Origin: Comamonadaceae bacterium 2PF
Lineage (GTDB): Bacteria; Pseudomonadota; Gammaproteobacteria; Burkholderiales; Burkholderiaceae_C
DNA: 64,000 nucleotides
Direction of reading: 5' to 3'
NCBI GenBank assembly: GCA_005502875.1
Contig: SCMV01000004.1
Span: 1 to 64,000 of the forward strand
The first letter of the stretch is position 1; each line of letters begins with the position of its first letter. Of the stretch, positions 3,947-33,469 are shown piece after piece. Made by a program: the position numbers and the translations under genes. Below the pieces are notes generated by a model. The model ran no database searches. It was not told the origin of the DNA and saw nothing but the letters and a program-made list of their open reading frames with translations.

Positions 3947-4645
3947 TCATGGCCCCTGAGAGCTGCCCCCCACCCCACCGAGCATCTCGCGAGCCAGCTT
4001 TTCTTGAGCATGCTCGATGGCTTTGGACTGCGAAATGTTCGGGGTAGCTACGGCATTTGCCGCATCTTCAAGCAGCTGTTGCTGCATCGACTCTTCCAGT
4101 CCAAACATGGTCTGGGCCTTGGCCGTGCCAAAGTATTGCGCGCGAAGGTCCCTTAGGGTCTGCAGCTGTCGGCGAGCCTCTTCAAGCGTCACTTCTTCAT
4201 GTGAGCTTGACGGAAATGCGGCGGTGAGTGCCTGATTGTACTGAGCGAACTGTTGATAGAGTTCGCGCACTTCCCGCTGGGCTTGAGGTGGCATCTCTAG
4301 CGTTGCGGCATTGAGTCGAGAGAGTGCTTCCTCACTCGAATACAAGGCTGCCATGCGTTCCATGTTCGACCGAGTTTCTGCGTTGAGAACAAGGTGGCCT
4401 CGAGAGACCTGGAAAGCTGGCAATGGCAATTCGTCGAGGGGCGATGGAGCGTCATTGGCTGCCGATAATGGTGCAGCTTGGCTCGGCAGCATGGCAACTG
4501 CCGGCCAAGCATCCCCCTGCCCCGACCGCTGAGGCAATGAGGCGCCTGCAACCGTGGTCGGCGCCGGACCTGACTGCCAAGTAAAGGCGATTGCCGTGAG
4601 CGTACAGGCCATGGCAATCGCGACAAGAGCTGTTTTCATTTTCAT
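3947..4645 (-). CDS. Short lipase-chaperone (Lif/foldase)-like membrane-anchored protein
   Basis: A 232-residue protein with the layout of a lipase-specific foldase: an N-terminal membrane anchor (residues 3-22), a Pro/Ala-rich linker to about residue 75, then helical segments. The stretch from FQVSRGHLVLN through LRAQYFG to MFGLEES lines up by eye with LipH/Lif proteins. It is shorter than the usual 320-350 residues, and the Lif signature RxxFDYCLSAxGE is degenerate (RSNMERMAALYSSEE). It is the last gene of an operon whose upstream members are exported hydrolases, so one of them is the likely client. Start uncertain: ATG 4645 or GTG 4660; no strong ribosome binding site. Confidence 0.65.
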   Translation of the reverse strand: MKMKTALVAIAMACTLTAIAFTWQSGPAPTTVAGASLPQRSGQGDAWPAVAMLPSQAAPLSAANDAPSPLDELPLPAFQVSRGHLVLNAETRSNMERMAALYSSEEALSRLNAATLEMPPQAQREVRELYQQFAQYNQALTAAFPSSSHEEVTLEEARRQLQTLRDLRAQYFGTAKAQTMFGLEESMQQQLLEDAANAVATPNISQSKAIEHAQEKLAREMLGGVGGSSQGP

Positions 4646-4691
4646 GAGATGAGGCAGCACTTCACTGCTTCAGTTGTACTGTTCGCAAGCC

Positions 4692-5519
4692 TCAGAACTG
4701 GCCACTTGTCGTGAATGAAGACCAAACGGCTTCCCGTTCACGAAGGAATTGGCTGTAGCTGCCATCCTGGTTCACGAAGCGCTTGAACCAGGAAATCTGG
4801 GTATAGCTGGTCGGCTCGTTGGGAGGCAGGGTCAGGTCGTGCGACTCGGGGAAGTTGTGGTCAGCCCCCGCGATGACCGCCAACATCTTCTGCGTCGTGG
4901 TGGGTATGGCGTTGTAGAACGGTTGGGCGAAAGTCTTGACCGGCGCGACGGGGTCTGCCGCCCCGCCGATGATGGCAGCAGGAACGGTCAGCTTGCGGTA
5001 CGGCGTAGACCAAAGGTTCCAAGGCGTGATAGCAAAGACAGCTTTCAGGCCGGGCGCTGCGGCCGCGGCCTCTAGGGCACCTCCGCCACCCATGGAGTGG
5101 CCGGCCACGGCTTGCCGAGTGACATCAATCTTGCCAGCTGCTGGGCCTGTGGTAACAGCAGCCGTCGCTTTCAGTGCAGCCAGGAGCTGCGTTGCCCTGC
5201 TGGATGGGAAATCCAGCACGGTCTTTGTATCAATGATGACGACCACGAAGCCATGAGTCGCAAGGCGACGGCCTAAACCAGTCATGAGCTTTTGTTTTGC
5301 CGTAAAGCCTGGAGTGATCGCAATCAGGGCGTATTTGCCAGGCTTGTCGGGCGAATAAACCGTCGCTGCGCCAAAGCCTGCAGGAGGCAGCGTCTGCGTG
5401 GATACCGTGAACGGCCCATCGCTCTTGACTTCTTCAATCGTGACAGCTCGGGCTGAGGATGCGTATGCCAAGGCGAGTGTGAGGCTCAATGCTGCAAGCG
5501 GTCGATTCAGCGTGAACAT
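4692..5519 (-). CDS. Secreted PETase/cutinase-like polyester hydrolase
   Basis: A 275-residue alpha/beta hydrolase with a signal peptide (about residues 1-25, ending SARA). Its order of motifs matches the bacterial cutinase and PETase group: GPFTVST at the start, oxyanion PGFTA with Phe72, nucleophile Ser142 in GHSMGGGG, ATPWN with Trp167, Asp189 in AADPVAPV, His221 in AGADHN and a C-terminal WFKRFV. Known relatives hydrolyse polyesters or short-chain triglycerides outside the cell. Unlike the IsPETase group, it has no cysteine at all, so neither disulfide can form. GGAGACAAC precedes the ATG. It lies 41 bp after the discoidin-hydrolase gene and 46 bp before the chosen Lif-like start. Confidence 0.82.
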   Translation of the reverse strand: MFTLNRPLAALSLTLALAYASSARAVTIEEVKSDGPFTVSTQTLPPAGFGAATVYSPDKPGKYALIAITPGFTAKQKLMTGLGRRLATHGFVVVIIDTKTVLDFPSSRATQLLAALKATAAVTTGPAAGKIDVTRQAVAGHSMGGGGALEAAAAAPGLKAVFAITPWNLWSTPYRKLTVPAAIIGGAADPVAPVKTFAQPFYNAIPTTTQKMLAVIAGADHNFPESHDLTLPPNEPTSYTQISWFKRFVNQDGSYSQFLREREAVWSSFTTSGQF

Positions 5520-5560
5520 GTTGTCTCCTAAACGTGGGTTGCCGTCATCTCGGCTGGTGG

Positions 5561-7387
5561 TCAGGGTCTGATGGGTGCTTCTTTCTGAATCTTCAGTGGC
5601 TTGATGGGGGTGCCGTCACTCCACGTGCCCATGGAACGGTGTTCGGGCGTGTCTCCAATCGCGTAGGCGCTGTTGGCGCCTTCGAATGCGGTATCACGCA
5701 GCGCGTCCCATACCTTCCAGACAAAGTTCCAGTCATAGGCGTCCAATCGAGACACGATGTTTTGGCCTGAGCTGACACCGCTGTCGCCGGATGAGACTCC
5801 GTGTCCGGACGACAGGTCCGGGTTTCCGTACGCATCGGTGTAGCTCAGCACCAGGGCCTTGTTCTGGCTGGGTATGTGGGCCAACCGGGGAAACAGTGCG
5901 TTGCAGGTACTGTTCTCGAATCCGGGCTTTTCATCGTTCACACCGTTGGCGCCGACATGGCACTCAACCAACGTGGTTGAAGGAATGCCTCCCAACGATT
6001 TGTCCAGCGCTGGCTCGCTGGCCCCGAGGAACCCACCGTCGTGCGGCTCATCGAGGAACATGACTCGAGGCTGTGGCAACCCGAGTGCGACATGGCGGTT
6101 CAGCAAGTTGGCGGTGATGATTCCGCCAAAGGAGAAGCCGAAATAGCTCGCTTTATCCAGTTCTGGTTGTACGCGGCTGGCGTCTGCCTGCAGGTAGTCG
6201 ATGCCGCCCTTGATGCCCTGAGTGGCGGAGTTCAGGCATGGCTGGATGTAAAACGGCCCCAGGCAAGGCGATATCACACTGGTCTGCCAGCGCGGATAGA
6301 TCACCACGTTCCCCTTGAGCACGGTGTGGCGGATTAGCTCCTCATGCATGCCATAGCCGGAGAAGTCGCCAAAGCCATGGATGATTACCGCCAAGGGCGC
6401 CGAAGATGGCTTTGGGGCGATGGGCTCAAAGACGTAATACTCATTGGCGCCTTTGCCGCCAACGCTGACCTGCATATCCCCATGGCGGTAGTCGCTGCCA
6501 CCTGGCCCTGACGAAGGCTGGGACGGTTGTGTGATGGCGGAGAACTCTCGCACGGCCAGTGGCTTGGTCTGCGGGATGGTGGGCCTGACTCGGACATATC
6601 GAGCGACAGTCCCCGCCGGCGCGCTCAGTTGCACATCACTCGTCTCAGCAAACGAGCCTACGGTGGTCCAAGACGTGTTGTCATTCGAGACCTCCAAGAT
6701 GCCTTGCTCAATCCGATGGTCAGGGTTTTTGGGCTCCCCCATCCGCAGGTCGATACGCCCAAGACGCGCAGGTCGTCCTTGGTCCAGCACCACAGCTTCA
6801 TTCAGCATTGGCGCACGAGAACTGCGCCAGAACGACTTCACGTCGCCGTCACTAGCGGAGCCCACGCCGGATAGAAGCATGGATGGGGTACTGGCATTGA
6901 CCAGTTGACGGTCCACGGCCAGTTCCCGAATCAGGAAGCTCTTTGTCTGCGCGACGGTAGGGCGAACGCGAACATAGCGTGCCTGCGTGCCCGGTGCCGC
7001 CGTCAAATGCACTTCATTGGACTGGGAGAAACGGCCAATGGGGGTCCAGGCGACCTTGTCCCACGAAACCTCCACCACGCCTTGGTCGATTCGAGCGTCA
7101 GATGCGCTGGCATTCGCCATGTAGAGGTCGACAGACGTGAGCGTCTTCAGAACCCCTCGGTCGAGCACGACGGAGTCGGCCAGCCCTGCACCTGCGACAC
7201 TGCGCCAAAACGTGGTGGCATCACCATCCACCATGAAACCGACAAATGTTCCCAAGCGGGTGCCCAGCGAGGTGGAAGCCGCGTCCGCGGCGGCTGCCTT
7301 ACCCATCATCCCCAGCATGGCGCCAGCAGCTGCCAGGCTTGCGGAAAACCTCTTGACCCAGCGGGCGCGATTCGTCTGTTGTTTCAT
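5561..7387 (-). CDS. Exported alpha/beta hydrolase with two tandem discoidin-like repeats
   Basis: A 608-residue exported protein. After a signal peptide (about residues 1-34) come two related modules of roughly 105 residues (about 52-158 and 178-286). Both contain DGD..FWRS, a VVLD strand, VEVS or LEVS with a following W, and ARYVRVRPT before an RE motif, as in F5/8 type C (discoidin) folds. After a Pro/Ser/Gly linker, the C-terminal domain has an HGFGD oxyanion strand and GFSFGG with Ser419 as probable nucleophile. Discoidin modules usually bind carbohydrates or surfaces, so this may be a surface-targeted esterase. The exact reaction is unknown. It is the second gene of the four-gene secreted operon. 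Confidence 0.7.
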   Translation of the reverse strand: MKQQTNRARWVKRFSASLAAAGAMLGMMGKAAAADAASTSLGTRLGTFVGFMVDGDATTFWRSVAGAGLADSVVLDRGVLKTLTSVDLYMANASASDARIDQGVVEVSWDKVAWTPIGRFSQSNEVHLTAAPGTQARYVRVRPTVAQTKSFLIRELAVDRQLVNASTPSMLLSGVGSASDGDVKSFWRSSRAPMLNEAVVLDQGRPARLGRIDLRMGEPKNPDHRIEQGILEVSNDNTSWTTVGSFAETSDVQLSAPAGTVARYVRVRPTIPQTKPLAVREFSAITQPSQPSSGPGGSDYRHGDMQVSVGGKGANEYYVFEPIAPKPSSAPLAVIIHGFGDFSGYGMHEELIRHTVLKGNVVIYPRWQTSVISPCLGPFYIQPCLNSATQGIKGGIDYLQADASRVQPELDKASYFGFSFGGIITANLLNRHVALGLPQPRVMFLDEPHDGGFLGASEPALDKSLGGIPSTTLVECHVGANGVNDEKPGFENSTCNALFPRLAHIPSQNKALVLSYTDAYGNPDLSSGHGVSSGDSGVSSGQNIVSRLDAYDWNFVWKVWDALRDTAFEGANSAYAIGDTPEHRSMGTWSDGTPIKPLKIQKEAPIRP

Positions 7388-7440
7388 GTCGATGCCTCAG
7401 TTGATGTTCTCGTTTCCGCTTGGCAGCTCAAAGCGGGCCA

Positions 7441-9087
7441 TCAAGGAGCTTCGTCAGGAGCCAACTGTAGGAGTGACGTACACCCGGCTGCACCGGCCGC
7501 ACGTTGCTCACGGTATTTCAGATAGTTGCCGGCAATTGCTGTCCTGGAGTATTTGCCCGAGGCGAGAATGACGTCGCCAGCAACGAGCAGTTGCTTGCGC
7601 ATGCGCTCAAAGTCCACTGCGGACTCGCCGTACGAGGGGGCCCACAGCGACCAGGGGCCGGAGATGGTGGAGACGACAGGCACCATGAAGGAGTTGAAGT
7701 AGCCACCAATGCCGCCGAATCCGCAGACGGCCGGGACGTGGGAGAAGTTCGGTATGTCTATGCCTCGTGCCACGGTTGTGCGACCAACTTGGCGACGCTT
7801 GACAGCTTCAACGGTGGCAGTAGCAAGTGGCGGCGTGGCTGTTGCCCAGATGGCTGGCTCCGCTTGACCGCTGAACTTGAGTGTTTTGCCCGGAAGAGGC
7901 CAGCGCGAGTAAGGCAGCAGTTCCTTGGTACCCAGATGCTCCAGGACCATGGCGAAGGCCACGCTGCCGCCGTCATATTCGCTGTCGAGCTTCTTGGCGA
8001 TGGCGTGGTTGCCCTCGTGAGACATGTGCGTGTGCCCCGAGCCGAAGGTGAATTCGATGGTGCGGGGACGGCACTGCTGAGGCAGGCTGGCGAAGTATTT
8101 GGCCAGCGTCAGCAAGCCCACTGTTCCGTTTTCTTGCACCCAGCCAATGCCATCGGAGTTGGTGTTCAACACCACCCGCTCTGCGCTACCGCCCGGAAGG
8201 GTTGCGAACAAGTTCCGGGTTGTCGCAACGTCACGTTCTGCCAGCACGGAGACGTTGGCGGTGGCACCGGCGGCCGCCAGCTTCTTGAGAGCCTCGCCCT
8301 CGTCCACGCCCACATAAACTGCGGGAAGCTTCAGGTGCGTGCCCCAATGTGGGTCGTAGTAGCCTCGGATTTGTGCGCGTGGCACGTTGAAAACGGAGAT
8401 ATAGCCTGCGGCACCGGCTTGTCCAGCAACAATCAGCTCTTCGGCCAGTGGCCCATCCGTGCCAAGGAACGGACGTTCGAAGGGGCTGAACAGGTTGGCA
8501 TAGAGGTCCGGCGTGATGTGATAGGCCAGGAGCGCCAGCCCAATGAAAGGCAAGGACGCCTTTGGAACCTCACGCACAATGATTTTGCCGCGCGAGTTCT
8601 CCGGCGTGATGGCCGTGCCCTCCGCCAAGTACACGAGTTCACCCGATTGACCAGCGGTGCCGGTGGGCAATGAAAAGGGGATGGCACCACCGATGGCAAC
8701 CTTTTGCACCCGGCCTGCCGATGTGACGTCCACGCCGCCTGCGAGCTCGAGGGTGCGGCCAGGCCCCTTGGGATTCAGTGTGGTCGGTTGCCATCGAGGC
8801 AGTTCGAACGCTTCAGTTCGCACTGTCATACCCGGAATCTTGCGCAACTCGCTGGCCAGCCAGTCAATGGTCTTTTCACCGCCCTCGCTGCCAGCGCTAC
8901 GCAACTCACCGAAACCGACGATGGTGCTCATCATCTGACGCAGGTCGGCGGCCGTGGTGAACTTCGTCTCGTCAACGACCGTAGGGCAAGTTGCTTGGGC
9001 GGATGTGGCTAGCATCAGCGCTGTGGCCAACAGAGTGCGAGCCATATAGGGGCTGCGGGGCCTCGAGCAGGCGTGTGTGAATTTCAT
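7441..9087 (-). CDS. Exported M28-like protein with PA-type insert
   Basis: A 548-residue exported protein whose signal region includes the hydrophobic ARTLLATALMLATSAQA. A protease-associated (PA)-type segment spans roughly residues 110-280, followed by an M28-like peptidase fold (TIEFTFGSGHTHM, then VLEHLG). The usual first zinc motif with His and Asp is replaced by NTNSDGIG and the second by QENG, so metal binding and peptidase activity are doubtful. It opens the operon, 53 bp ahead of the discoidin hydrolase. A plausible promoter lies 34-62 bp upstream of its ATG. It may process or bind polymer fragments, but no function can be proven. A second candidate start is Met15 at 9045. Confidence 0.65.
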   Translation of the reverse strand: MKFTHACSRPRSPYMARTLLATALMLATSAQATCPTVVDETKFTTAADLRQMMSTIVGFGELRSAGSEGGEKTIDWLASELRKIPGMTVRTEAFELPRWQPTTLNPKGPGRTLELAGGVDVTSAGRVQKVAIGGAIPFSLPTGTAGQSGELVYLAEGTAITPENSRGKIIVREVPKASLPFIGLALLAYHITPDLYANLFSPFERPFLGTDGPLAEELIVAGQAGAAGYISVFNVPRAQIRGYYDPHWGTHLKLPAVYVGVDEGEALKKLAAAGATANVSVLAERDVATTRNLFATLPGGSAERVVLNTNSDGIGWVQENGTVGLLTLAKYFASLPQQCRPRTIEFTFGSGHTHMSHEGNHAIAKKLDSEYDGGSVAFAMVLEHLGTKELLPYSRWPLPGKTLKFSGQAEPAIWATATPPLATATVEAVKRRQVGRTTVARGIDIPNFSHVPAVCGFGGIGGYFNSFMVPVVSTISGPWSLWAPSYGESAVDFERMRKQLLVAGDVILASGKYSRTAIAGNYLKYREQRAAGAAGCTSLLQLAPDEAP

Positions 9088-9296: not shown

Positions 9297-10037
9297 ATGA
9301 CATCTTTAACCGCCAAATTTCTCCAGCCCCTTGGCGCGGCCGAGCAAGCTGCGGTGATGGCCGTGGCGCAGCCCTGGAAGGCTGGGGCTGAGGAAGTGCT
9401 CTATCGGCCGGGTCATCCTGTGCCCGGTATCTGGCTCTTGGATGTAGGCATGGTGAGGTATGAGGTCATCACCGCTGAAGGGCGTCAGGTAATCCCGGCG
9501 TTCTCTTTGCCGGGAGCGTGCTTCGGCGAGCTTGAAATCCTTGAGCAACGTGTCTCTGAAGTCGCTGCTGTGACGTCCATGCCATGTGAGGGATGGGTCT
9601 TGTCTGCCGCTTCAATGCTGGAAGCGGTGGAGTCCGTACCCGGATTCAGCAAGCTCATGTTGTTGAAGCTTGCCCGCAATGTTCGTGTCAGCCAATCGCT
9701 GTACCGAATGGCACTGGTCATGGGGCAGCACGAGCGCCTGGTCTTGGCCCTATTGAACCTGGCGCAACAAGTGGTCGGGCATGATGGCCAAGCTAAGTTG
9801 GTCTTTCCTTTTACGCAAGAAACGCTTTGCCAAGTCACAGGGTCCAGTCGACAGGTCGTTAGCAAGTACCTGCGTCAATGGGGGGAGCGTGGCTGGATTG
9901 CGCCCCGATATCGGTCCTTGGAAATCCTTGATTCAAAGGGGCTGAAATCGGTGTTTCCGCAGACAGTAGATCCTGAGCTTTTCGTACTGCTGCATAGGAC
10001 TGCCCTTGGTGTGCTGCCTGCGCTCACGGTGAAGTAG
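9297..10037 (+). CDS. Crp/Fnr family transcriptional regulator
   Basis: A 246-residue regulator with an N-terminal cyclic-nucleotide-binding-type beta barrel (PGHPVPGIWLLDVGMVRYE, then LPGACFGELEIL) and a C-terminal winged helix-turn-helix (FTQETLCQVTGSSRQVVSKYLRQ). No cysteine cluster like that of Fnr is present, so an oxygen-sensing iron-sulfur cluster is unlikely. It is divergent from the secreted-hydrolase operon, the obvious candidate target. The last codons overlap the end of a broken IS element on the other strand, so its natural C-terminus may have been altered by that insertion. Confidence 0.88.
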   Translation: MTSLTAKFLQPLGAAEQAAVMAVAQPWKAGAEEVLYRPGHPVPGIWLLDVGMVRYEVITAEGRQVIPAFSLPGACFGELEILEQRVSEVAAVTSMPCEGWVLSAASMLEAVESVPGFSKLMLLKLARNVRVSQSLYRMALVMGQHERLVLALLNLAQQVVGHDGQAKLVFPFTQETLCQVTGSSRQVVSKYLRQWGERGWIAPRYRSLEILDSKGLKSVFPQTVDPELFVLLHRTALGVLPALTVK

Positions 10038-10695
10038 GTGGCCGGTTCAGCTCCTGGCGGAAGCTGCTGTTGAAGCGCTCGATGAGCGCGTTCTGGTTGG
10101 GCTTGCCGGGCTGGATGAACAGCAGCTTCACACCGCTCCTCTCGGCCCAGTCGACGAAGGCCTCTGCGGTCAGTTCGGGGCCGTTATCCAGGCGGATCGC
10201 CTCAGGCCGACCGAACATCTCCACCTGTTGCCCCAGCACGCGAACCACGCGCGACGACGGGATCGACGTGCCGCATTCGATGCGCAGCGCCTCCCGGTTG
10301 CCCCCGTCGATCACGTTCAGCGTCCGGAAAGACCGGCCGTCGTAGAGCGTGTCGCGCATGAAGTCCAGCGCCCAGACGCGGTTGAGCTCCGAGCTGGCCA
10401 GCAGCGGCTGGCGCTCGCACGTCAGCACGCGGCGCCGAACCTTGCGCTTGAGGTTCAGCCGCATCGCGCAGTACACGCGATACACCCGCTTGTGGTTACA
10501 GCCGCGCCCGCCTTGCCGAAGCCGGTCGAAGCACTTCCAAAAGCCCCAGCGCGGGCGCTTTTCCGGCATCCGGTGAGCGCGTCAAGACCGGCACACCTTG
10601 GCCGCCCGATCCGTCGTGGGCGTGTACAGCGCCGGCCGAGGGAGCTACACGTCCTAGCAGGCGCGCACATGGGACAAGTGACGTTCGTCGACCAT
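10024..10695 (-). pseudogene. Degenerate IS3-family (IS407-group-like) transposase fragment
   Basis: Remnant of an OrfB transposase. The readable part has GFWKCFDRLR, NHKRVYRVYCAMRLNLKRK, WALDFMRDTLYDGR and IRLDNGPELT, ending NALIERFNSSFRQEL, so the DDE catalytic motifs can be followed. Upstream, the same frame continues to about 10695 (FMVDERHLSHVRAC) but is broken by stops at 10654-10656, 10645-10647 and 10582-10584. The C-terminus is cut off near 10040, just after RQEL. No OrfA and no terminal inverted repeats were found. It is a dead, two-sided truncation that marks a past insertion between the Crp and lipase genes. Confidence 0.85.
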
Positions 10696-10911
10696 GAACT
10701 CCAACGCTTGATTGTTCTGATTGCTTTTAGCTGTCGACGTAGTCTGACCCATGGTTTCCCCCAGGAAACCCAGAGAAATTAGTTCGCCCTTGCAGTGCGG
10801 ATTAACCCTGCAGTTGCGTCTTCAAGCAATGAACCTGCGTGCAGCTTCAATGGGCCCCTGACTCCTCAAAAAACAATAAAGCCCCAATCAAGCACACATA
10901 GCGGAGATAAC

Positions 10912-12159
10912 ATGAGCACCCTACTTCGGACCATCCATCTGGCGGCAGTCACGAGCACTGCTTTCTGCGTTTCTTTGGCATGCCAGCAGTCGTTTGCCTC
11001 TAGTGCCCCCGAACTCTACCCGACCGCCACGGCAAGCACGACGCCGTCTCCGACGGTTGACCCGTTCTATCAGCCTCCTAGCGATGCGGTGCTGCGCCAG
11101 GCTTCACCAGGTACGGTCCTGAGGTATCGCCCAATCGTCCCGATGGCTTCCTCCACAAAGCAGATTGCGGCGAAGGCCTGGCAATTGATGCTGCGCTCGA
11201 CCGACCACAAGGGGCAGGCCGTAGCGTCGGTCGCGACGGTCTTTCTTCCTGCCAATGCACCTGCAAAAGGCAAGAAGGTCGTGGCTTACAACCCGGCCTA
11301 TGACTCGCTGACCATCGAGTCCGCCCCCTCATATGCCTACGTGAAAGGTGGTGTCGCCGGTGAACAGGGCAGCTTCCAGTCGTACCTAAGCAAAGGCTAC
11401 GTTGTTTTAGTCTCTGACTATGAAGGGCTCAAGTCTCTGTGGGCGGTTGGTCGAAACTCTGGTCAAGGTGTCCTCGACGCCATTCGAGCGGCGGAATCTT
11501 TTCCCGAACTCGGTCTGAGTGGTACGTCCACGCCAGTGGCCATCACCGGATATTCGGGTGGTGCTATCGCGGCCACATGGGCCAATGAACTCTATGAGCA
11601 ATATGCCCCTGAGCTCAACATCCGCGGGGTGGCTGCGGGCGGAATTGCTGTCGATGTGAGGAACGTGGCGAGGAAAGTAAACAAGAAGCTTTTTGCGGGT
11701 CTGTACTTTGGTGTGGTGGCAGCTTATGCCCGCGCCTATCCAGAAATAAACGTAGAGGCATTGACCAACGCCAATGGAAAGGCCATGCTGGAGGAAGTGG
11801 GGGAGATGTCCAATTACACCAAACCCAATTTCTTCAAGTACGCTTACAAAGACTTGCAGAGCTATGTCACTGTTCCGAATATTCTCGATTTGCCGGAGGT
11901 CAAAGCGGTGATAGAAGAAAACCGGCTCGGTCAGGCCAAACCAGGCGCCCCCACTTATCTCTATAACGGAACAACAGACCAAGTGATGCCCTGGGAAGAT
12001 GTGCAGGCCTTGCGCACGAAGTATTGCTCACAAGGGGTGAAAGTCAAGCTGTCGGGCATCTTAGGCGAACACATCCTCGGCTTGGTGCTGGGCGCACCCT
12101 CAGCAAAAACTTATGTGGATGACATCTTCAGTGGCAAAGTGCCCAATGACTGCCCCTGA
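10912..12159 (+). CDS. Secreted LIP-family lipase
   Basis: A 415-residue secreted alpha/beta hydrolase of the LIP (secretory lipase) family, related to fungal CalA-type lipases and their bacterial counterparts. A signal peptide ends near FASSAP (residue 30). The nucleophile is Ser215 in GYSGGA; Asp in NGTTDQVMPWED and His in GEHILG complete the probable triad. It should cleave acylglycerols or other esters outside the cell. I chose ATG 10912 because GGAG lies 5 bases upstream and a signal peptide follows directly; a longer frame from 10795 adds an unlikely leader. It stands alone, between the IS remnant and an AraC regulator. Confidence 0.85.
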   Translation: MSTLLRTIHLAAVTSTAFCVSLACQQSFASSAPELYPTATASTTPSPTVDPFYQPPSDAVLRQASPGTVLRYRPIVPMASSTKQIAAKAWQLMLRSTDHKGQAVASVATVFLPANAPAKGKKVVAYNPAYDSLTIESAPSYAYVKGGVAGEQGSFQSYLSKGYVVLVSDYEGLKSLWAVGRNSGQGVLDAIRAAESFPELGLSGTSTPVAITGYSGGAIAATWANELYEQYAPELNIRGVAAGGIAVDVRNVARKVNKKLFAGLYFGVVAAYARAYPEINVEALTNANGKAMLEEVGEMSNYTKPNFFKYAYKDLQSYVTVPNILDLPEVKAVIEENRLGQAKPGAPTYLYNGTTDQVMPWEDVQALRTKYCSQGVKVKLSGILGEHILGLVLGAPSAKTYVDDIFSGKVPNDCP

Positions 12160-24958: not shown

Positions 24959-25728
24959 GGTTGGGCAGCGGTGGAGGCAGGGGCGCCCACGGGGGCGGAA
25001 AAAGGCTGGACGGTTGCGGGCATGTCGGCGCTGGCTTGTGCCAGTCGAGCCACCGTGGCCGCATCCAGCCCCAGTGATGTCGCGAGTTCGCGGGCTTTGT
25101 CGGCGCGCCCCTCGCGGAGGGTCAACAGCACCAGGTTGCGTGCGGCTCGGGCGTCACCCGGGGCCAACTCCAGCACCGTGAGGAACTCGAAGCGGGCGTC
25201 GTCAAAGCGCTGGGCCAGCAGCAGGGCGTAGCCGAGGTCGTTGCGCACGCGGGCATCGGTGGGCTGCAGGTTGCGGGCGCGCTCCAGCGAGGCGATGCTG
25301 TCGGCTTGTTGGCCCCGTTGCGCTTGCAAGAGGCCCAGGCCATGCCAGGCGCGCCCTTGCAGGCAGCCGCCAAGCAGGCTGCGGTACAGGGCCTCGGCCT
25401 GATCCGGGCGGTCGATGCGGCGCAGGGCGTCGGCGCGAGCAAGGTCGACTTGCGGCGGGCGCATGCCTTGTGCCGCGAGGGCATCGAGCTGGGCCAGCGC
25501 CGCGTAGGGCTTGCCCTCGCGCAACAGCTGCTCAATGCCCGCCAGGCGGGTGTTGTCGGTTGGGTTGAGGTCGCTGCTGCAGGACCCGTCGGCCGCGGTG
25601 CCGCCAGGCGCGCGCGGGGGCAGGTTGCAGCCGCTGAGGCCACCGATCAGCGCCACCAGGCAAATCAGGGCGCCAAGGCGGCCAAGGGCCTGGCCGGGGC
25701 AGGGCGTGTCGAAGAGGCGGGCGCTCAT
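24955..25728 (-). CDS. tadD: TadD-like tetratricopeptide-repeat lipoprotein
   Basis: A 257-residue lipoprotein with lipobox LSGC (Cys34) and TPR helices over about residues 60-225 (DLGYALLLAQRFDDARFEFL, ARNLVLLTLREGRADKARE). TadD acts as the outer-membrane pilotin that helps place the secretin RcpA/CpaC in Flp pilus systems. It overlaps both neighbours (TadC stop region at 25725-25728 and DUF3613 start), showing a tight operon. Confidence 0.85.
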   Translation of the reverse strand: MSARLFDTPCPGQALGRLGALICLVALIGGLSGCNLPPRAPGGTAADGSCSSDLNPTDNTRLAGIEQLLREGKPYAALAQLDALAAQGMRPPQVDLARADALRRIDRPDQAEALYRSLLGGCLQGRAWHGLGLLQAQRGQQADSIASLERARNLQPTDARVRNDLGYALLLAQRFDDARFEFLTVLELAPGDARAARNLVLLTLREGRADKARELATSLGLDAATVARLAQASADMPATVQPFSAPVGAPASTAAQP

Positions 25729-26636
25729 GACATCCTCTTGAGGGCATTGATCAGCGCCAGGAAGCCCGGGCCGGCCAGGAACAGCAGCAAGGCCGGGAAC
25801 ATGAACAGCATCATCACGATGCTGAGCTTGGCCGACATCTTGCCCACCTTGTCGCGCAGGCTGGTCATGCGACGCTCTTCCATCATCTTGACGTAGCGCA
25901 TCAGCGATTCGCGCAGGTTGCCGCCATAGCGCGCGGCCTGCTTGAGCATGGCCACGGTTTCCGTCAGCTCGTCGACGTCGAGGCGGCGGGCGAGTTCTTC
26001 CAGCGCGTCGCCGCGCTCCTGCCCGTGCTGGATGCGCTGCAGCACCCAGGCGAATTCGTCGGCCAGGTTGGGCGTGACCTGCCGGCCCTGTTCGCTGATG
26101 GCCTTGAGCGTGTGCTCCAGAGAGAGCCCCGCATCAAAGAGCAGGCGCATCAGGTTAAGCGCCACCGGCATCTCTTCGCGGATGGCCAGCCGGCGCCTCT
26201 CGGCCAGGTTGCGCAGGATGGCGCGTGGGGCGATGTAGCCCACGGTCAGGCCGGCGAAGGCAGAGTGGAACATGGGCCAGCCCTTGGCCGAGCCGATCAA
26301 CGCGCTCAGCACGGCCAGCACCAGCGGCGCGACCCACAACGAGGTGTAGACGCGCGATCGAAGCGCGTCGTCCATCAGCGCAGCCTGGCGTATCAGCCGT
26401 TCGATCTCCTGCATGTCCGAGCCGGGCAGGCGCTCGAGCATGCGGCGAAAGCGCCGCGTCAGGCGGGCCATGCCGCTCACACGGCGCTGTTGGAGCCAGG
26501 CGCTTTCGTCGTCGGCTTCGAGCACTTCGTTGAAGCGCTTTTCGGCCTCGGGCACCGTGCCTTCGTCGCGCGTGAGGCTCACCAGCACCCAGGCCAGGGC
26601 CAGGAGCATCGCTGCGAGCAACCACCAGATCGTCAT
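25725..26636 (-). CDS. tadC: TadC, type II/IV secretion system F-domain membrane protein
   Basis: A 303-residue inner-membrane platform protein with the T2SF/GspF domain (NLMRLLFDAGLSLEHTLKAI, later LKQAARYGGNLRESLMRYV) and membrane spans near residues 3-15, 100-140 and at the C-terminal end. With TadB it forms the platform on which the TadA ATPase extends the Flp pilus. Ten bases separate its start from the TadB stop. Confidence 0.92.
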   Translation of the reverse strand: MTIWWLLAAMLLALAWVLVSLTRDEGTVPEAEKRFNEVLEADDESAWLQQRRVSGMARLTRRFRRMLERLPGSDMQEIERLIRQAALMDDALRSRVYTSLWVAPLVLAVLSALIGSAKGWPMFHSAFAGLTVGYIAPRAILRNLAERRRLAIREEMPVALNLMRLLFDAGLSLEHTLKAISEQGRQVTPNLADEFAWVLQRIQHGQERGDALEELARRLDVDELTETVAMLKQAARYGGNLRESLMRYVKMMEERRMTSLRDKVGKMSAKLSIVMMLFMFPALLLFLAGPGFLALINALKRMS

Positions 26637-26646
26637 GGCATCGTCC

Positions 26647-27549
26647 TCACAGGCTCTTGATCATGCGCCACATCACGAGCGCGCCCAGGGCCTGCAGGCC
26701 CGCCGCCACCACGAGCACGACCTGCCCGGTGCTGCTGTCCCACATGGTCATCATGTACTTGGGGTTCTGCCAGAGCATGTAGGCCACCAGCACGCCGGGC
26801 GTCATGCCCAGCACCCAGGCCGTCACGCGCGTCTCGCCTGTCAAGGCCTTGAGCTCTTCCTGGGCCTGCTGGCGCTGGCGGATCATGCTGACGATGCTCT
26901 CGAGCATTTCACGTGGGCTGCCACCGTACACGCGTGAGCTGTGGATGGTCAGGGCCAGCAGGTGCAGCTCCTTGATGTCGTAGAACTGCGCCGCTTCGCG
27001 GAAGGCGTCACCCAGGTCCACGCCGAGCTCGACGTTCTGCTGCGCGCGCATCACCACGCTGCGCAGGGGCTCGCGCAGGTCTTCGTTGGCCATCTTGATG
27101 GCGCCTTCGATGTTGCGGCCCGTCACCAGGCCACGCACCACCTGGTCGATGAACAGCGGGATCTGCTCGACCAGGCGGTTGACCTTCTGGCGGTAGCGTA
27201 CCTGCGGCACCAGCACGATCACCACGGTGGCCAGCACCCACCAGCCGACGCCGAACAGGGCGCCCAGGTTCTGCCACAGCAGCACGCCCATCAGAACCAC
27301 ACCGGCCAGCATGACCAGCGCCATGTTGGGCGACAGGTTCAGCCCCACGCGCTTGAGCCACAGGTCGAGTGCGGCCGTCATGGTGCCGAGTTGGGCGTCG
27401 GGCTTGCCCATGTCGTGGGGCAGGAAGGCCACCGCCGCCAGGCGCTGGTGCACCTTGGCGATCTGCTCCTGCCGCTGCGCCCGGATCATCGAGAGCACGG
27501 CGCCCAGCATCATCAGCAGGGCGATCAGGAAGAAGATGGCGCTCAGCAT
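26647..27549 (-). CDS. tadB: TadB, Flp pilus assembly platform protein
   Basis: A 300-residue membrane protein with the T2SF domain (QIPLFIDQVVRGLVTGRNIE, then IHSSRVYGGSPREMLESI). Spans lie at residues 2-20, about 75-110 and near the C-terminus. It is the partner of TadC in the inner-membrane platform of the pilus machine and follows the TadA gene by 18 bp. Confidence 0.92.
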   Translation of the reverse strand: MLSAIFFLIALLMMLGAVLSMIRAQRQEQIAKVHQRLAAVAFLPHDMGKPDAQLGTMTAALDLWLKRVGLNLSPNMALVMLAGVVLMGVLLWQNLGALFGVGWWVLATVVIVLVPQVRYRQKVNRLVEQIPLFIDQVVRGLVTGRNIEGAIKMANEDLREPLRSVVMRAQQNVELGVDLGDAFREAAQFYDIKELHLLALTIHSSRVYGGSPREMLESIVSMIRQRQQAQEELKALTGETRVTAWVLGMTPGVLVAYMLWQNPKYMMTMWDSSTGQVVLVVAAGLQALGALVMWRMIKSL

Positions 27550-27567
27550 GGCTTCAGTCCGTCACCG

Positions 27568-28851
<1,284 letters not shown>

Positions 28852-28861
28852 GGCGCTCGGC

Positions 28862-30082
28862 TCAGGTGGTCTTGAAACGGCTGGTCAACTGGTTGAGCCA
28901 GCCAGAGCCCACATCGATGGGCTTGAGCGGTGCACGCGGGTCGTCGCCCAGGCCGATCGCGATCTTGCGGATGGCCACGGTGTACGGATCGCGCGGGGCC
29001 GAGGTGAACAGGCTCTCGCCCGAGTTCATCATCGTCAGGCGCGCCATGCCCGAGGAGGGCAGCGTGCTCAGCAGCGGGATGCCAAAGCCCTTGGCGATGG
29101 TCTCGGCATCGGGCGGCACGCTGGGCAGGTAGCGATCGACCACCAGGCTGATCTGGCCCGAGCCCATCTTGTCGACCTTGGCGTCGCGCAGCTTTTGCAG
29201 CAGGTTGCGGTTTTGCTTGCAGCTGGGCACGCTTTGCTCGACCAGCAGCAGGGTGCGGTCGGTGCGGCCCAGCAGCACGTACAAGAACTCGGAAGCTGGC
29301 ACGCCGCCCAGGTTGACCACGATCTGCCTGAAGTGGCGCTTGAGCGCGCTCAGCAGCACGTACAGGTCGGCCGAGGTGATGCGGCTCATCTCCAGCGCGT
29401 CCTCCGGCATGGCCAGGATGCGCAGGCCGGTCTCGTGCTTGGGAAACGCCGTGTTGATCAGGGTTTCGTCCAGACGCCGCAGGCTGCGGATGGCGTCGAC
29501 GAAGGTGTAGGTCGGCTCGATGCCCAGGTACTGCAGGCTGTCGCCCGCGGGCACGCCCAGGTCGAGCAGCAGGATCTCGTCCTTGGGGGCCTGCTCTTGC
29601 AGGGCCAGCGCCAGGTGCAGGGCGAACATCGTGGTGTCACCACCCGGGCGAGCGCTGGCCACGGCGGTCATCGCGCCTTCGCTGCCACCGTTGCCTCGTT
29701 GCGGGTCGCTCACCTCGCGCTGGGCGGCGCGGCGCACCAGGCTGATGACCTCACCGGGGCGCATGTCGGGCGAGATGAAGTCGCGCGCTCCCGAGCGCAG
29801 CGCGGTCAGCACCGACTGGCGGTCGGCGGTTTCGGCCAGCGCGATGACGGGCAGCAAAGGCTTGGCCGCGGTCAGGCCTTCCATGAAGCTGGCGTCTTGC
29901 GACAGGCGGCTGCCCTGCAGCTCGCACAGCACCACGCGGGCGTGCACGGCGTCGATCAGTTGCACCACGCGCTCGAGGTTATCCGAGTCGGCCATGACGA
30001 TCTCGGCCTCGTCCTGCAGGGTGGTCTGCACCCAGTGGGCCACGTCCTTGTTGTGCGTGATCAGGAGGAAGTGTTGGCTCAT
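28862..30082 (-). CDS. tadZ: TadZ/CpaE pilus-localisation protein
   Basis: A 406-residue protein with an N-terminal receiver-like domain (MSQHFLLITHNKDVAHW, IALAETADRQSVLTALRSGA) and a MinD/ParA-like ATPase domain. The Walker A segment reads SARPGGDTTMF: the canonical KGGVGKTT lysines are gone, in keeping with the atypical ATP sites described for TadZ proteins. LLLDLG and VVNLGG match the other conserved segments. TadZ places the pilus machine in the cell. It lies between tadA and the secretin gene. Confidence 0.88.
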   Translation of the reverse strand: MSQHFLLITHNKDVAHWVQTTLQDEAEIVMADSDNLERVVQLIDAVHARVVLCELQGSRLSQDASFMEGLTAAKPLLPVIALAETADRQSVLTALRSGARDFISPDMRPGEVISLVRRAAQREVSDPQRGNGGSEGAMTAVASARPGGDTTMFALHLALALQEQAPKDEILLLDLGVPAGDSLQYLGIEPTYTFVDAIRSLRRLDETLINTAFPKHETGLRILAMPEDALEMSRITSADLYVLLSALKRHFRQIVVNLGGVPASEFLYVLLGRTDRTLLLVEQSVPSCKQNRNLLQKLRDAKVDKMGSGQISLVVDRYLPSVPPDAETIAKGFGIPLLSTLPSSGMARLTMMNSGESLFTSAPRDPYTVAIRKIAIGLGDDPRAPLKPIDVGSGWLNQLTSRFKTT

Positions 30083-30095
30083 GCGAGTGCCCCCT

Positions 30096-31496
30096 TCACT
30101 GCGAGAAGCCGGATTCGCTGCCGTCGAAGCGGCCGCGCTCCATCAGCAGCATGTGCAGGAAGCCCGGGTCGTAGCGTTTGAGTTCTTCGCCAGGCATGTC
30201 GGGCAGCTTGGCCTTGGCCGCGAACGGGCGCACCAGGCGCGGCGTGACGATCATCAGCAGTTCCTTGTCGTTGCGCTCGATGCGATTGGACTTGAAGAAG
30301 GCGCCGAGCACGGGGATGTCGCCCAGGAAGGGGAACTTGTCGATGGTGCCAACGCTGTCGCGGCTGACCAGGCCGCTGATGACGAAGGTCTCGCCATCGC
30401 CCAGGGCCACGGTGGTTTCGGTGCGGCGCACGCGCAGGCCAGGGATGTTGAAGCCGCCGATTTGCACCGACAGGGCGGGGTCGATTTCGCTGACTTCGGG
30501 CGCCACCTTCAGGGCGATGCGCTGCTGGTCAAGCACCGTGGGTGCCAGACCCAGGCGGATGCCGAACTCCTTGAACTTGACGGAGACCGAGCTATCGGCT
30601 CCCGAGCCGGTGCGCATCGGGATGGGCAGCTCGCCGCCAGCCAGGAAGGTGGCGGTCTGGCCGCTGAGTGCCGTCAGGCTGGGCTCGGCCACGGTGTAGG
30701 CGAAGCCGTTGCTTTCGAGGGCGCTGAACACCGCCAGGGCGTTGCTGCTCCAGGTGAAGATGTTGAAGGCGTCGGTGCGCGGCAGGAAGCCGCTGGTGCT
30801 GGAGATGGTTCGGATCGGGTCTGACCCTGCGTTCTGGGTTTGCTCGAAGCCCGACAGGTTGTTGGGGCCAGACAGGCCCGAGGCGCGGCCGCCATAGCCG
30901 CTGCGCCAATAGAACCCCGACGCCATCAACTTGCTGCGGCTGACCTCGACGATCTTCACGTCGATCTGCACCTGCACATCAAAGCCCGAGGTGGTGGTGT
31001 CGATCACGTTGGCAGAAGGCTTGTCACCCGCTTCGCGCGTGGCCGATTCGAGCGCCGACTGCTGCTCCAGCGAGCGCAACTCGCCCGAGAGCTTGAGCTT
31101 GGTGCCGCTGCCGCTGACCTGCACGCCCGAGCCGCTGCTGGCGATGCCGGCCGGCGTCACCACCACCTGGAACTGCGAAGCCGGTGTGCTGCGCCCGCTG
31201 TTGTCCCAGATCGAGACCATGGCCGAGCCCGGTTTCTTGGCCGTGAGGATGACACCCGAAGGCGGCACCACGTTGATGCCGACGACCTCGTCGTTGGCCG
31301 TGGCCGCGCGCTGAATGGGGCGAGCCAGGCTCCAGGTTTTTTGCTCGCCGACTTCGAGCCGCTGCACGGCCGGCGCGGCCTGCGCGTGGGGGGCGCCCAA
31401 GCCCGTGGCCAGAAGGGCCAGGCCCAGGCAGGCCGCGTGGCGCGGAGCGAGGAGGGCGAAGGGCAGGAAGGCCTGCAAAAGTGGGCGCACGGTCAT
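30096..31496 (-). CDS. cpaC: RcpA/CpaC outer-membrane secretin
   Basis: A 466-residue secretin subunit that forms the outer-membrane channel of the Flp pilus. A signal peptide ends near AQAAPA. A pilus/BON-type N-terminal region (GVILTAKKPGSAMVSIWD) precedes the secretin domain (VQIDVKIVEVSRSKLMASG, later LGDGETFVISGLV and IPVLGAFFKS, the terminal signature). It overlaps the cpaB stop by four bases. C-terminal residues after MIVTPRLVRP form a short tail. Confidence 0.93.
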   Translation of the reverse strand: MTVRPLLQAFLPFALLAPRHAACLGLALLATGLGAPHAQAAPAVQRLEVGEQKTWSLARPIQRAATANDEVVGINVVPPSGVILTAKKPGSAMVSIWDNSGRSTPASQFQVVVTPAGIASSGSGVQVSGSGTKLKLSGELRSLEQQSALESATREAGDKPSANVIDTTTSGFDVQVQIDVKIVEVSRSKLMASGFYWRSGYGGRASGLSGPNNLSGFEQTQNAGSDPIRTISSTSGFLPRTDAFNIFTWSSNALAVFSALESNGFAYTVAEPSLTALSGQTATFLAGGELPIPMRTGSGADSSVSVKFKEFGIRLGLAPTVLDQQRIALKVAPEVSEIDPALSVQIGGFNIPGLRVRRTETTVALGDGETFVISGLVSRDSVGTIDKFPFLGDIPVLGAFFKSNRIERNDKELLMIVTPRLVRPFAAKAKLPDMPGEELKRYDPGFLHMLLMERGRFDGSESGFSQ

Positions 31497-32398
31497 GGCT
31501 GGGCAGGGGCGTCGTTGCGGGTCAGGCGGCGCTCCTTGCTGCCCTCCTGGATGATGATGGCCGGGCCACCTTCGGGCACGGGCGGCTTGGCGCGGACGGG
31601 CGACAGGTCGCTCACCCGCGTGGTCAGTCGGCCGGACGTGGCGTCGGGCGACTCGACGCCCTCGTGTTTGGGGCGCAGGGCCAGCCGCAAAACGCCCGTG
31701 TTGGCCGCCAGCATGAGCGCCGAGGCATCGTTTTCGCGCACGGCCAGCACCGCCGAGCGCAGCGACTGCCGACGCTCGCGAGCCTGCAGGGCAGCCTGGG
31801 CACCGGTCTCGCGCATGGCTTCCTGCGTGGCTTGACCGCCCGTGGATGTCGGCGCCTGATCGATCTGGGTCGCATCACCAAAGGTCAGGATGCGCGCGCG
31901 GCGCACCAGCACCTGCGCGAAGCTGGTGTCCTGGTTCTCTCGCGTCGCGCCCATGAACTGCATCACGTCGACAAAGTCGCCGGGCTTGGCGAAACCGCCC
32001 ACGCCAATCACCTCATCGACCTGCACGGCCACGGCCCGCTCGCCCGGTTGCAGCAGCGCCGAGAGCGACTCGGGCGCGATGGCGTCCAGCAAAACCGGGG
32101 TGCCCTTGGTGATGTCGCGCGAGCTCACCTGCCCGAGCGCCTGCTGGGTCGACGCCAGGCTGCCCTGGGGCGCCGAGGCGGCGGTCTCGAGCTGCACGTC
32201 GGCCGACTCCAGCATGTGGCCAGCACGGATGTCCCGCGCCGCGACGACGAACTGGGCCGATGCGGGCGCTGCAGGTGCCGAGGCAGCTTGCGTGCTTGGG
32301 GTGGCGGGCTCACCGCTCAGGCGCACGCCAATCAGGGCCACCACGACGGCGCCCAGTGCCAGCACGCCAGCGAGGATCTTGAGGACGTTGTTGTTCAT
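31493..32398 (-). CDS. cpaB: CpaB/RcpC pilus assembly protein
   Basis: A 301-residue protein with an N-terminal anchor (NVLKILAGVLALGAVVVALIG) and an SAF domain (VVAARDIRAGHMLESADVQ), followed by the RcpC/CpaB region (AVAVQVDEVIGVGGFAKPGDFVDV). It works in the periplasm with the secretin. It is translationally coupled to the secretin gene (overlap 31493-31496) and lies 20 bp after tadE. Confidence 0.92.
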   Translation of the reverse strand: MNNNVLKILAGVLALGAVVVALIGVRLSGEPATPSTQAASAPAAPASAQFVVAARDIRAGHMLESADVQLETAASAPQGSLASTQQALGQVSSRDITKGTPVLLDAIAPESLSALLQPGERAVAVQVDEVIGVGGFAKPGDFVDVMQFMGATRENQDTSFAQVLVRRARILTFGDATQIDQAPTSTGGQATQEAMRETGAQAALQARERRQSLRSAVLAVRENDASALMLAANTGVLRLALRPKHEGVESPDATSGRLTTRVSDLSPVRAKPPVPEGGPAIIIQEGSKERRLTRNDAPAQP

Positions 32399-32418
32399 GT
32401 CGGAGGCTTGCCCGGGCT

Positions 32419-32892
32419 TCAGTTCGGACGCAGGGTGGCAGTGCCCACGAGGTCGTCGGGCAGGTTGGGGATGGCGCCGATGAGGGGCAGCGTGAGCACG
32501 GGCATCAGCGGCGACTGGCCATAGCCGGTGTAGCTCACCCTGACCTCCATCGTGCCGGAGGCGCTCCAGGTGACGGTGATGCCGGAGGTGACCTTCGCGC
32601 GGATGTCATCGCTCATCCAGGCCAAGTCCTTTTCCGCTTGCGAGCGCACCACGTTGCGCGCGGCCGTCTGGTAGCTGGCGACGCTGGTGTACGCGGCTGG
32701 CTCGACCTTCACGGCGGCGCGAGCACCCTCTGCGGCCGTGTAGGTCAGCGCCTGTTGGATCAGCATGGCCAGGCCGTAGCTGAAGGTCGCGTAGAAGATC
32801 CCGAAAAACAGGATGAACAAAGGCGCGAATTCGATGGCCACGCCACCCAGTTGCGGCTGGCGAGCCCGCCTGCGCAGGCGGGCAGGCTTCAA
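32419..32892 (-). CDS. tadE: TadE-like pseudopilin
   Basis: A 157-residue TadE-family minor pilin. The class motif is GVAIEFAPLFILFFGIFYA near the N-terminus, with the prepilin-peptidase site before it. I set the start at TTG 32892, which overlaps the TadV stop (TTGA). The same frame stays open far upstream inside tadV, but that part is a shadow of tadV. Another internal start is possible. It is processed by TadV in known systems and sits between tadV and cpaB. Confidence 0.8.
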   Translation of the reverse strand: MKPARLRRRARQPQLGGVAIEFAPLFILFFGIFYATFSYGLAMLIQQALTYTAAEGARAAVKVEPAAYTSVASYQTAARNVVRSQAEKDLAWMSDDIRAKVTSGITVTWSASGTMEVRVSYTGYGQSPLMPVLTLPLIGAIPNLPDDLVGTATLRPN

Positions 32893-33416
32893 AGCAGCGA
32901 ATGCGGGGTGAGAAGCGCGGCGATCAGGCCGACGCTCAGGCACGTGCCCAACGGTATGTGCCTCGCAGGCGGCTGGCGTGCGGCCCAACGAGCCAGCCAG
33001 GAGTCGGGTCGCTGCAGCACGCGTGGCAACGCGAGGTACAGGCTGTGCCTTTGTTTGCTCAACAGACCCACTGCGGCGCCCAGCAAGGCGCCGACGGTGA
33101 AGCAGATCAGGGTGAGCGGCCATGATGACAACAGGCCAATGGCCACGAGGAATTTGACATCGCCGGCCCCCAGGCGCTTGGTCAGGTAACCCGGTAGGGT
33201 CACCAGCAGAGCGCCGGCGGCGGCCAGCAGCGCAGAAGCCGGTTCGGCGCCCAGCAGACTTCGACCGCTGAGCGCCAACACGCAAAAGGCCACCACCCAA
33301 GCCCCCAGCGAGAGCAGGTTGGGGATGCGCCGGTGGCGCCAGTCGCTCCAGGCGATCAACAGTGCCCAGGTGAGCACCAACGCAGCAGCGGGCGAGTTGG
33401 CCCCGGGTACCGGCAT
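32889..33416 (-). CDS. tadV: TadV/CpaA prepilin peptidase
   Basis: A 175-residue type IV leader peptidase of the short TadV type. The two catalytic aspartates are visible in IAWSDWRHRRIPN and LGAGDVKFL. It is nearly all membrane helices. It should remove the leader from Flp and the TadE/TadG pseudopilins. It lies 53 bp after flp, and its stop overlaps the tadE start. Confidence 0.92.
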   Translation of the reverse strand: MPVPGANSPAAALVLTWALLIAWSDWRHRRIPNLLSLGAWVVAFCVLALSGRSLLGAEPASALLAAAGALLVTLPGYLTKRLGAGDVKFLVAIGLLSSWPLTLICFTVGALLGAAVGLLSKQRHSLYLALPRVLQRPDSWLARWAARQPPARHIPLGTCLSVGLIAALLTPHSLL

Positions 33417-33469
33417 GCCTCAGGCGAGAACGCAAACGAGCCTTTGCCGGGCCTCGAAGCCAGGGAGCC

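Follow-up and report, generated by a model that had tools for sequence, protein, structure and literature searches.

A short Lif-family protein without MD2 is encoded beside PETase-like enzymes in Comamonadaceae bacterium 2PF and other proteobacteria

Which enzyme may a Lif-like foldase serve when the gene beside it does not encode a lipase of the GHSHG type? This question is raised by a locus of Comamonadaceae bacterium 2PF, located in the first 64,000 nucleotides (the window) of contig SCMV01000004.1, here called C44, of a 4.18 Mb genome. A gene for a short protein of the Lif family (short Lif) follows there the gene of a PETase-like enzyme and two further genes of the same strand:

3947-4660, minus strand: short Lif-family gene (237 aa, GTG start)
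4692-5519, minus strand: gene of a PETase-like exported serine hydrolase (275 aa)
5561-7387, minus strand: discoidin hydrolase gene (608 aa)
7441-9087, minus strand: gene of a PA-domain, M28-like protein (548 aa)

The original prediction, made from the letters of the window, described these four genes as an operon of exported ester hydrolases ending in a Lif-like chaperone. Our comparison confines the conserved unit of the locus to its last pair, the PF12740 PETase-like enzyme and the short Lif, which recur together, whereas the two upstream genes do not recur as part of such a set and are lineage-specific additions, sharing a transcript with the pair at most. The pair is a conserved variant of the Lif system that is undescribed in the literature searched. 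Judged from sequence comparison, it is likely that the short Lif is a dedicated periplasmic folding or secretion partner of the neighbouring PETase, acting in a Lif-like manner without the MD2 clamp.

The product of 4692-5519 matches PF12740 with 230.3 bits (cut-off 28) as well as PET hydrolases and cutinases of the PDB (best E 5.8e-56), in agreement with the PETase/cutinase-like label given to it before. It contains the motif GHSMGGGG, and its translation is free of cysteine. S142, D189 and H221 are invariant in 22 aligned rows; from their position we take them to be the candidate catalytic triad.

The product of 3947-4660 was predicted to be Lif-like, and with 31.6 bits to PF03280 (Lipase_chap; cut-off 25.7) it lies above the gathering score of this family. 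The match covers only profile positions 1-87 of 192. The protein consists of an inner-membrane helix at about residues 7-28, a linker of low confidence, MD1 and most of the extended helical domain; for the latter two the predicted fold is that of a foldase. MD2 is absent, and with it the C-terminal third of a Lif. This is a property of the group, since 44 short Lifs have 0-16 residues in the MD2 columns, compared with 82-106 in 12 full Lifs. The MD1 signature RXXFDY(F/C)L(S/T)A is likewise missing: the window protein reads RSNMERMAAL at this place. The F of the signature is found in 0 of 44 short and 12 of 12 full Lifs, and the same counts apply to the Y/F position; in short Lifs, F is replaced by an aliphatic residue and D mostly by E, and no aromatic residue stands in place of Y. 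The NCBIfam model for lipase secretion chaperones is missed (best 32.4 bits, cut-off 285), a strict cut-off under which a full Lif of the same genome also stays, at 234 bits. Of 48 paired short Lifs (four of them duplicate loci), 43 have a hydrophobic segment above 1.6 on the Kyte-Doolittle scale; that of L052 lies away from the N-terminus. The known Lif, LipB and LipH foldases (PF03280; 2ES4, 9G8U) differ in both respects, as they carry MD2 and RxxFDY, and their neighbour is a LipA-type lipase instead of a PF12740 enzyme.

Within the genome of strain 2PF, matches to the Lif family were detected at four loci. A full Lif lies between two GHSHG lipases on contig C26, a divergent Lif adjoins two LipA-like lipases on C88, the window locus is on C44, and on C8 a second short Lif is found directly downstream of a second PETase. 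The lipases of this genome have adjacent Lifs of their own, and the short Lifs go with the PETases. The earlier statement that the Lif partner in the window is no GHSHG lipase is thus borne out: the PETase has GHSMG, and the GHSHG and LipA-like lipases sit at C26 and C88. Among 42 genomes of the genus, PF03280 is present in 39, and PF12740 (E <= 1e-20) was detected at 54 places in 28. A short Lif stands beside 22 of these 54 PETases, own genome included, 21 times in tandem and once divergently (L052).

For the view beyond the genus we used 399 genomes of the family and 369 of the class (PF12740 at E <= 1e-60, with up to six candidates scored per genome and weaker PETases uncounted). PETases are rare there, being present in 11 of 399 family genomes, three of which belong to the genus, and in 3 of 369 genomes of the class, counting the own one. 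Where they occur, the pairing is constant: in the family outside the genus, 16 of 16 PETases (8 genomes, 6 genera) have a short Lif no more than 1.4 kb away, two of these 16 standing second in a PETase array, and in the class outside the family both PETases, of one genus, have a short Lif neighbour. A scan of named genomes matched at least 595 stretches. Of 478 loci the best 80 were kept and assigned to phyla by record title; in these, a short Lif follows directly downstream in 11 of 11 proteobacterial and in 0 of 69 actinobacterial loci, Thermobifida fusca included in the latter. The proteobacterial loci are from Aquabacterium (4, all of them also part of the genus set), the Burkholderiaceae metagenome-assembled genome (MAG) SKYG39 (2), Duganella, a Rhodoferax MAG, a Hydrogenophaga MAG and Steroidobacter (2). 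One locus of the scan, L170, owes its 12.4 bits against the short-Lif profile to the PETase frame and is not included among the Lifs. The absence from actinobacteria is the control expected for a Gram-negative periplasmic factor.

Searches that started from the short-Lif alignment give lower bounds. In the order, at least 5 of 399 genomes have a match (own included, up to six candidates scored per genome); of the other four, G097 matches in a short frame and three match in long ones of 323-368 aa. In the family, at least 7 of 150 genomes match (own included, up to 17 scored), the other six comprising four with short frames (G498, G489, G483, G561) and two with long frames only. No match was obtained when plasmids were searched with the short Lif of the window. 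Arrays in which PETases share one short Lif were seen in L278, L276 and L277, in the order PETase, short Lif, PETase or with two PETases in tandem and the short Lif transcribed divergently from them.

The best-known member of the enzyme family belongs to this set. A PETase of family genome G489 is identical in 290 of 290 residues to PDB 6qgc; we take this protein to be IsPETase of Ideonella sakaiensis. Its contig of 4023 bp (G489:C74) is arranged as follows:

first in order, plus strand: AraC-like C-terminal piece (labelled by reading and plasmid annotation)
379-1134, minus strand: short Lif (251 aa, PF03280 60.1 bits)
ending at 2223, plus strand: IsPETase (by identity to PDB 6qgc)
last in order, minus strand: dihydroorotase-like open reading frame (labelled by reading and plasmid annotation)

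IsPETase and its short Lif are 217 bp apart and divergently transcribed, whereas the window pair is in tandem. IsPETase carries GWSMG where the window enzyme has GHSMG, and both forms are common: among PETase rows with an adjacent Lif (51, with 4 duplicate loci included), 23 have GWSMG, 25 GHSMG and 3 other motifs. Over 3810 bp the contig is 99.4% identical to G768:C2. On plasmid NZ_CP136337.1 of Piscinibacter gummiphilus SBD 7-3, RefSeq annotates a 'poly(ethylene terephthalate) hydrolase' beside a 'lipase secretion chaperone', and the latter is 100% identical to the G489 short Lif over 248 residues. The plasmid stretch (L290, 153445-170188) comprises an IsPETase-like gene, two short Lifs and regulators, with a pair of IS1071 transposase genes at one end and an IS91-like transposase gene at the other. 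Both loci share with the window a PETase with an adjoining short Lif, and an AraC-type regulator piece stands next to it there; the position between IS1071 and IS91-like transposase genes distinguishes the plasmid from the window. Comparison of L290 with the IsPETase contig (99.4% over 3.8 kb) suggests a recent transfer of the PETase/short-Lif pair as a unit. A chaperone label for the neighbour of IsPETase is thus already in the database, and the pairing itself is undescribed in the literature searched: among the papers listed from full-text PMC literature, where subscription journals are poorly covered, we found none linking a PETase with a lipase chaperone, and none naming a neighbour tag of ISF6_4831.

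The two partners also diverge together. The pairwise distances among PETases are correlated with those among short Lifs over 44 pairs (r 0.78; reached in 0 of 2000 permutations), a value from which four duplicate loci were left out and shared ancestry was not removed. Mean identity among these pairs is 51% for the PETases and 28% for the short Lifs. In all seven close pairs tried, the short Lifs have a dN/dS of 0.14-0.35 and their PETases one of 0.07-0.25; the short Lif is under purifying selection.

For the binding, the chaperoning and the route of secretion we infer the following course. The PETase-like enzyme would cross the inner membrane unfolded by means of its signal peptide. The short Lif, presumably anchored in this membrane by the N-terminal helix and reaching into the periplasm on the flexible linker, may bind the emerging enzyme with the surface of MD1 and the helical arm. 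It could thereby help the PETase to attain or hold a secretion-competent fold and might then deliver the enzyme to the T2SS (type II secretion system); the genome carries a full gspD (590 bits). The short Lif would thus act as a Lif foldase does, but on clients of a different family and with no MD2 clamp. As only MD1 and the arm remain, the signature is changed and the client is new, the enzyme would have to be engaged differently than in known Lifs.

Several observations weigh against such a folding role. First, 32 of the 54 PETases of the genus have no adjacent short Lif according to the short-Lif profile; one of them, L120, lies at a contig end with its downstream side out of view. On the supporting side, thirty-one of the 32 Lif-less proteobacterial PETases form one clade (SH-aLRT 99), and the 32nd, L138, is placed elsewhere by a badly trimmed row (29% of columns). 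The tree is of a quick kind with long-branch warnings, omits four duplicate loci and has three actinobacterial loci (4 rows) as outgroup; the count of labels on it cannot separate gain from loss of Lif. Second, of the 57 short Lif-family proteins used for the short-Lif tree, 13 lack an adjacent PETase, among them L041, L043, L046, L047, L251, L252, L253 and the second of L275. The 44 paired short Lifs are not strictly one clade, five PETase-less short Lifs and two poorly covered full Lifs being interspersed. Third, PET hydrolases of the PF12740 type have been solved repeatedly (56 distinct PDB sequences at E <= 1e-100), and a review (PMC12296185, in excerpt) describes IsPETase production in Escherichia coli with general chaperones only. 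Because IsPETase is made there without the partner, it folds in the absence of the short Lif at least when over-produced, and a strict need of the short Lif for PETase activity in E. coli is unlikely. The same review, in the title of a reference, names an A. parvum lipase as a close relative of IsPETase that was expressed in E. coli. This lipase probably corresponds to the sole PETase found in the genome of A. parvum B6 (G007), a PETase with an adjacent short Lif (L066). An Aquabacterium enzyme of the PF12740 family, MBI3384080.1, gave large polycaprolactone clearing zones in a screen (PMC10547765, in excerpt). Finally, short Lifs have lost both MD2 and RxxFDY. MD2 grips the client in Pseudomonas aeruginosa LipH, where the lipase is held by MD2 and the arm and the contacts of MD1 are transient (PMC13381987, in excerpt), and mutation of the RxxFDY motif in MD1 inactivates foldases (PMC7046727, in excerpt).

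Part of this evidence feeds the main rival, in which the PETase folds spontaneously and the short Lif is a holdase, an inhibitor or a secretion adaptor; it would either keep the PETase inactive in the periplasm, where lipid esters could be attacked, or pass it on to the T2SS. PETases obtained without the short Lif (PDB entries; PMC12296185, in excerpt) and the missing clamp and folding signature fit this view, as does the retention of membrane anchor and linker. However, the remaining part has the fold of a foldase, known members of the family fold their clients, and no specific sign of inhibition or hand-over was found. We regard this rival as unlikely. A dedicated folding or secretion partner is retained as the preferred reading. 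With regard to its history, we lean slightly towards the view that proteobacterial PETases, IsPETase included, evolved with a dedicated class of MD2-less foldases, from which one Aquabacterium clade escaped.

Some short Lifs without a PETase stand beside other hydrolases. In L046 (2493-5324) and L047 (2391-5314) they overlap or follow an S15/PepX hydrolase, and in L252 (4650-6265) an esterase of the polyhydroxybutyrate-depolymerase type (PF10503), as candidate clients; the matches to PF02129, PF08530 and PF10503 are those of L046 and L252. Owing to these neighbourhoods, short Lifs may serve several exported hydrolases. In L069 (2-1929, genome G014), a divergent Lif overlaps a GDSL-type hydrolase frame, labelled from its motif GDSMSDTGN.

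According to the original prediction, the chaperone would serve all three hydrolases of a conserved polyester- or lipid-degrading operon. The four open reading frames are indeed present on one strand, with GHSMG and GFSFG in the translations; of the claimed gaps of about 40-53 bp, two fit (53 and 41 bp from upstream) and the third is 31 bp, giving a true range of 31-53 bp. From this spacing, co-transcription is plausible. Between 3800 and 9400 no consensus sigma-70 site was found, and five terminator-like sites are at chance level (4.9 in shuffles). The neighbourhoods compared speak against the set as a unit: phmmer at 1e-3 detected neither the discoidin hydrolase nor the PA protein in 40 Lif neighbourhoods of 3.9-10.7 kb, where the PETase is the recurring neighbour.

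The two upstream genes have histories of their own. The two discoidin modules described for 5561-7387 were recovered (PF00754, F5/8 type C, 82.2 bits in two N-terminal stretches), as was GFSFG; the C-terminal part matches no Pfam hydrolase at E <= 1, and residues 323-447 match a chlorophyllase of the PDB weakly (E 0.0015). A complete gene occurs in 1 of 42 genus genomes, the own one only. At E <= 1e-10 its sole trace in the 41 others is a remnant in L150 (G008:C1:38236-38460), 76% identical to residues 535-608. For 7441-9087, the PA part of the label stays below threshold (16.9 bits, cut-off 23.9), and no match to M28 (PF04389) was obtained at E <= 1. Kin of 27-31% identity occur in 3 of the other 41 genus genomes (4 of 42 with the own one), and those in L152-L154 match M28 above cut-off. 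In the alignment with them, the first metal-ligand motifs are altered from HxD to NSD and from ED to QE; without an M28 match and with these positions changed, a catalytic M28 peptidase is not supported. The nearest plasmid relative, a hypothetical protein of Rhodococcus erythropolis R138 (L292), is 48% identical, with no PETase annotation within 6 kb. With its upstream genes distributed in this way, a conserved four-gene operon is very unlikely.

A role of the short Lif in trans on the GHSHG lipases of the genome, with the PETase neighbourhood being incidental, would make use of the LipA-like lipases present; these have adjacent Lifs, however, and the PETase neighbourhood recurs in other genera, which makes this role extremely unlikely. 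A decaying Lif remnant kept by linkage, which the loss of the C-terminal third and of the signature might suggest, is rejected as hardly credible, being contradicted by the low dN/dS in seven pairs, by the uniform lack of MD2 in all 44 short Lifs and by conservation from Aquabacterium to Steroidobacter and in a further family of the class.

Concerning the surroundings, an AraC-type regulator adjoins the short Lif in 8 of 18 related loci, matching the AraC protein of the window at E 2.4e-21 to 2.7e-60. The match is weaker and in a long frame in two loci (L050, L060; 7e-13, 1e-15) and missing in eight. Where other loci carry this regulator, the window has a convergent LysR gene beside the short Lif. 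On the other side of the four genes, a CRP-type regulator (9297-10037) is followed by the C-terminal part of an IS3-type transposase (10024-10569, minus strand; NCBIfam positions 146-328 of 369, 128.7 bits, cut-off 160). A PF03583 secretory lipase is encoded at 10795-12159 on the plus strand (194.8 bits), 1.7 kb beyond the set; in L118, L119 and L122 of the genus, a gene of this type directly follows a Lif-less PETase. Flp/Tad pilus-like open reading frames (secretin, CpaE-, CpaF- and TadB/TadC-like, labelled from translations) occupy 25725-33435, and their secretin is also a weak gspD match.

Polyester hydrolysis with the help of a lipase chaperone has a parallel in Lip1-LipO of Burkholderia vietnamiensis, where the lipase-chaperone gene and also the T2SS are needed for extracellular hydrolysis of medium-chain-length polyhydroxyalkanoate; the enzyme is of the triacylglycerol-lipase type and not a PETase (PMC13101487, in excerpt). 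For PETase production, a review counts misfolding and inclusion bodies in bacterial hosts among the limits (PMC12296185, in excerpt). Much engineering work is devoted to IsPETase and its relatives, and a natural candidate partner adjoins the gene. Our results suggest an overlooked dedicated folding partner for Gram-negative PETase-like enzymes, IsPETase included. If this is true, the best-known plastic-degrading enzyme would have its natural partner for folding or secretion in the unstudied neighbour of IsPETase, and the short Lif would define a minimal steric chaperone independent of the MD2 clamp and of RxxFDY. Since MD2 and the signature are absent and purifying selection nevertheless acts, short Lifs could separate the client-folding from the client-gripping parts of Lif.

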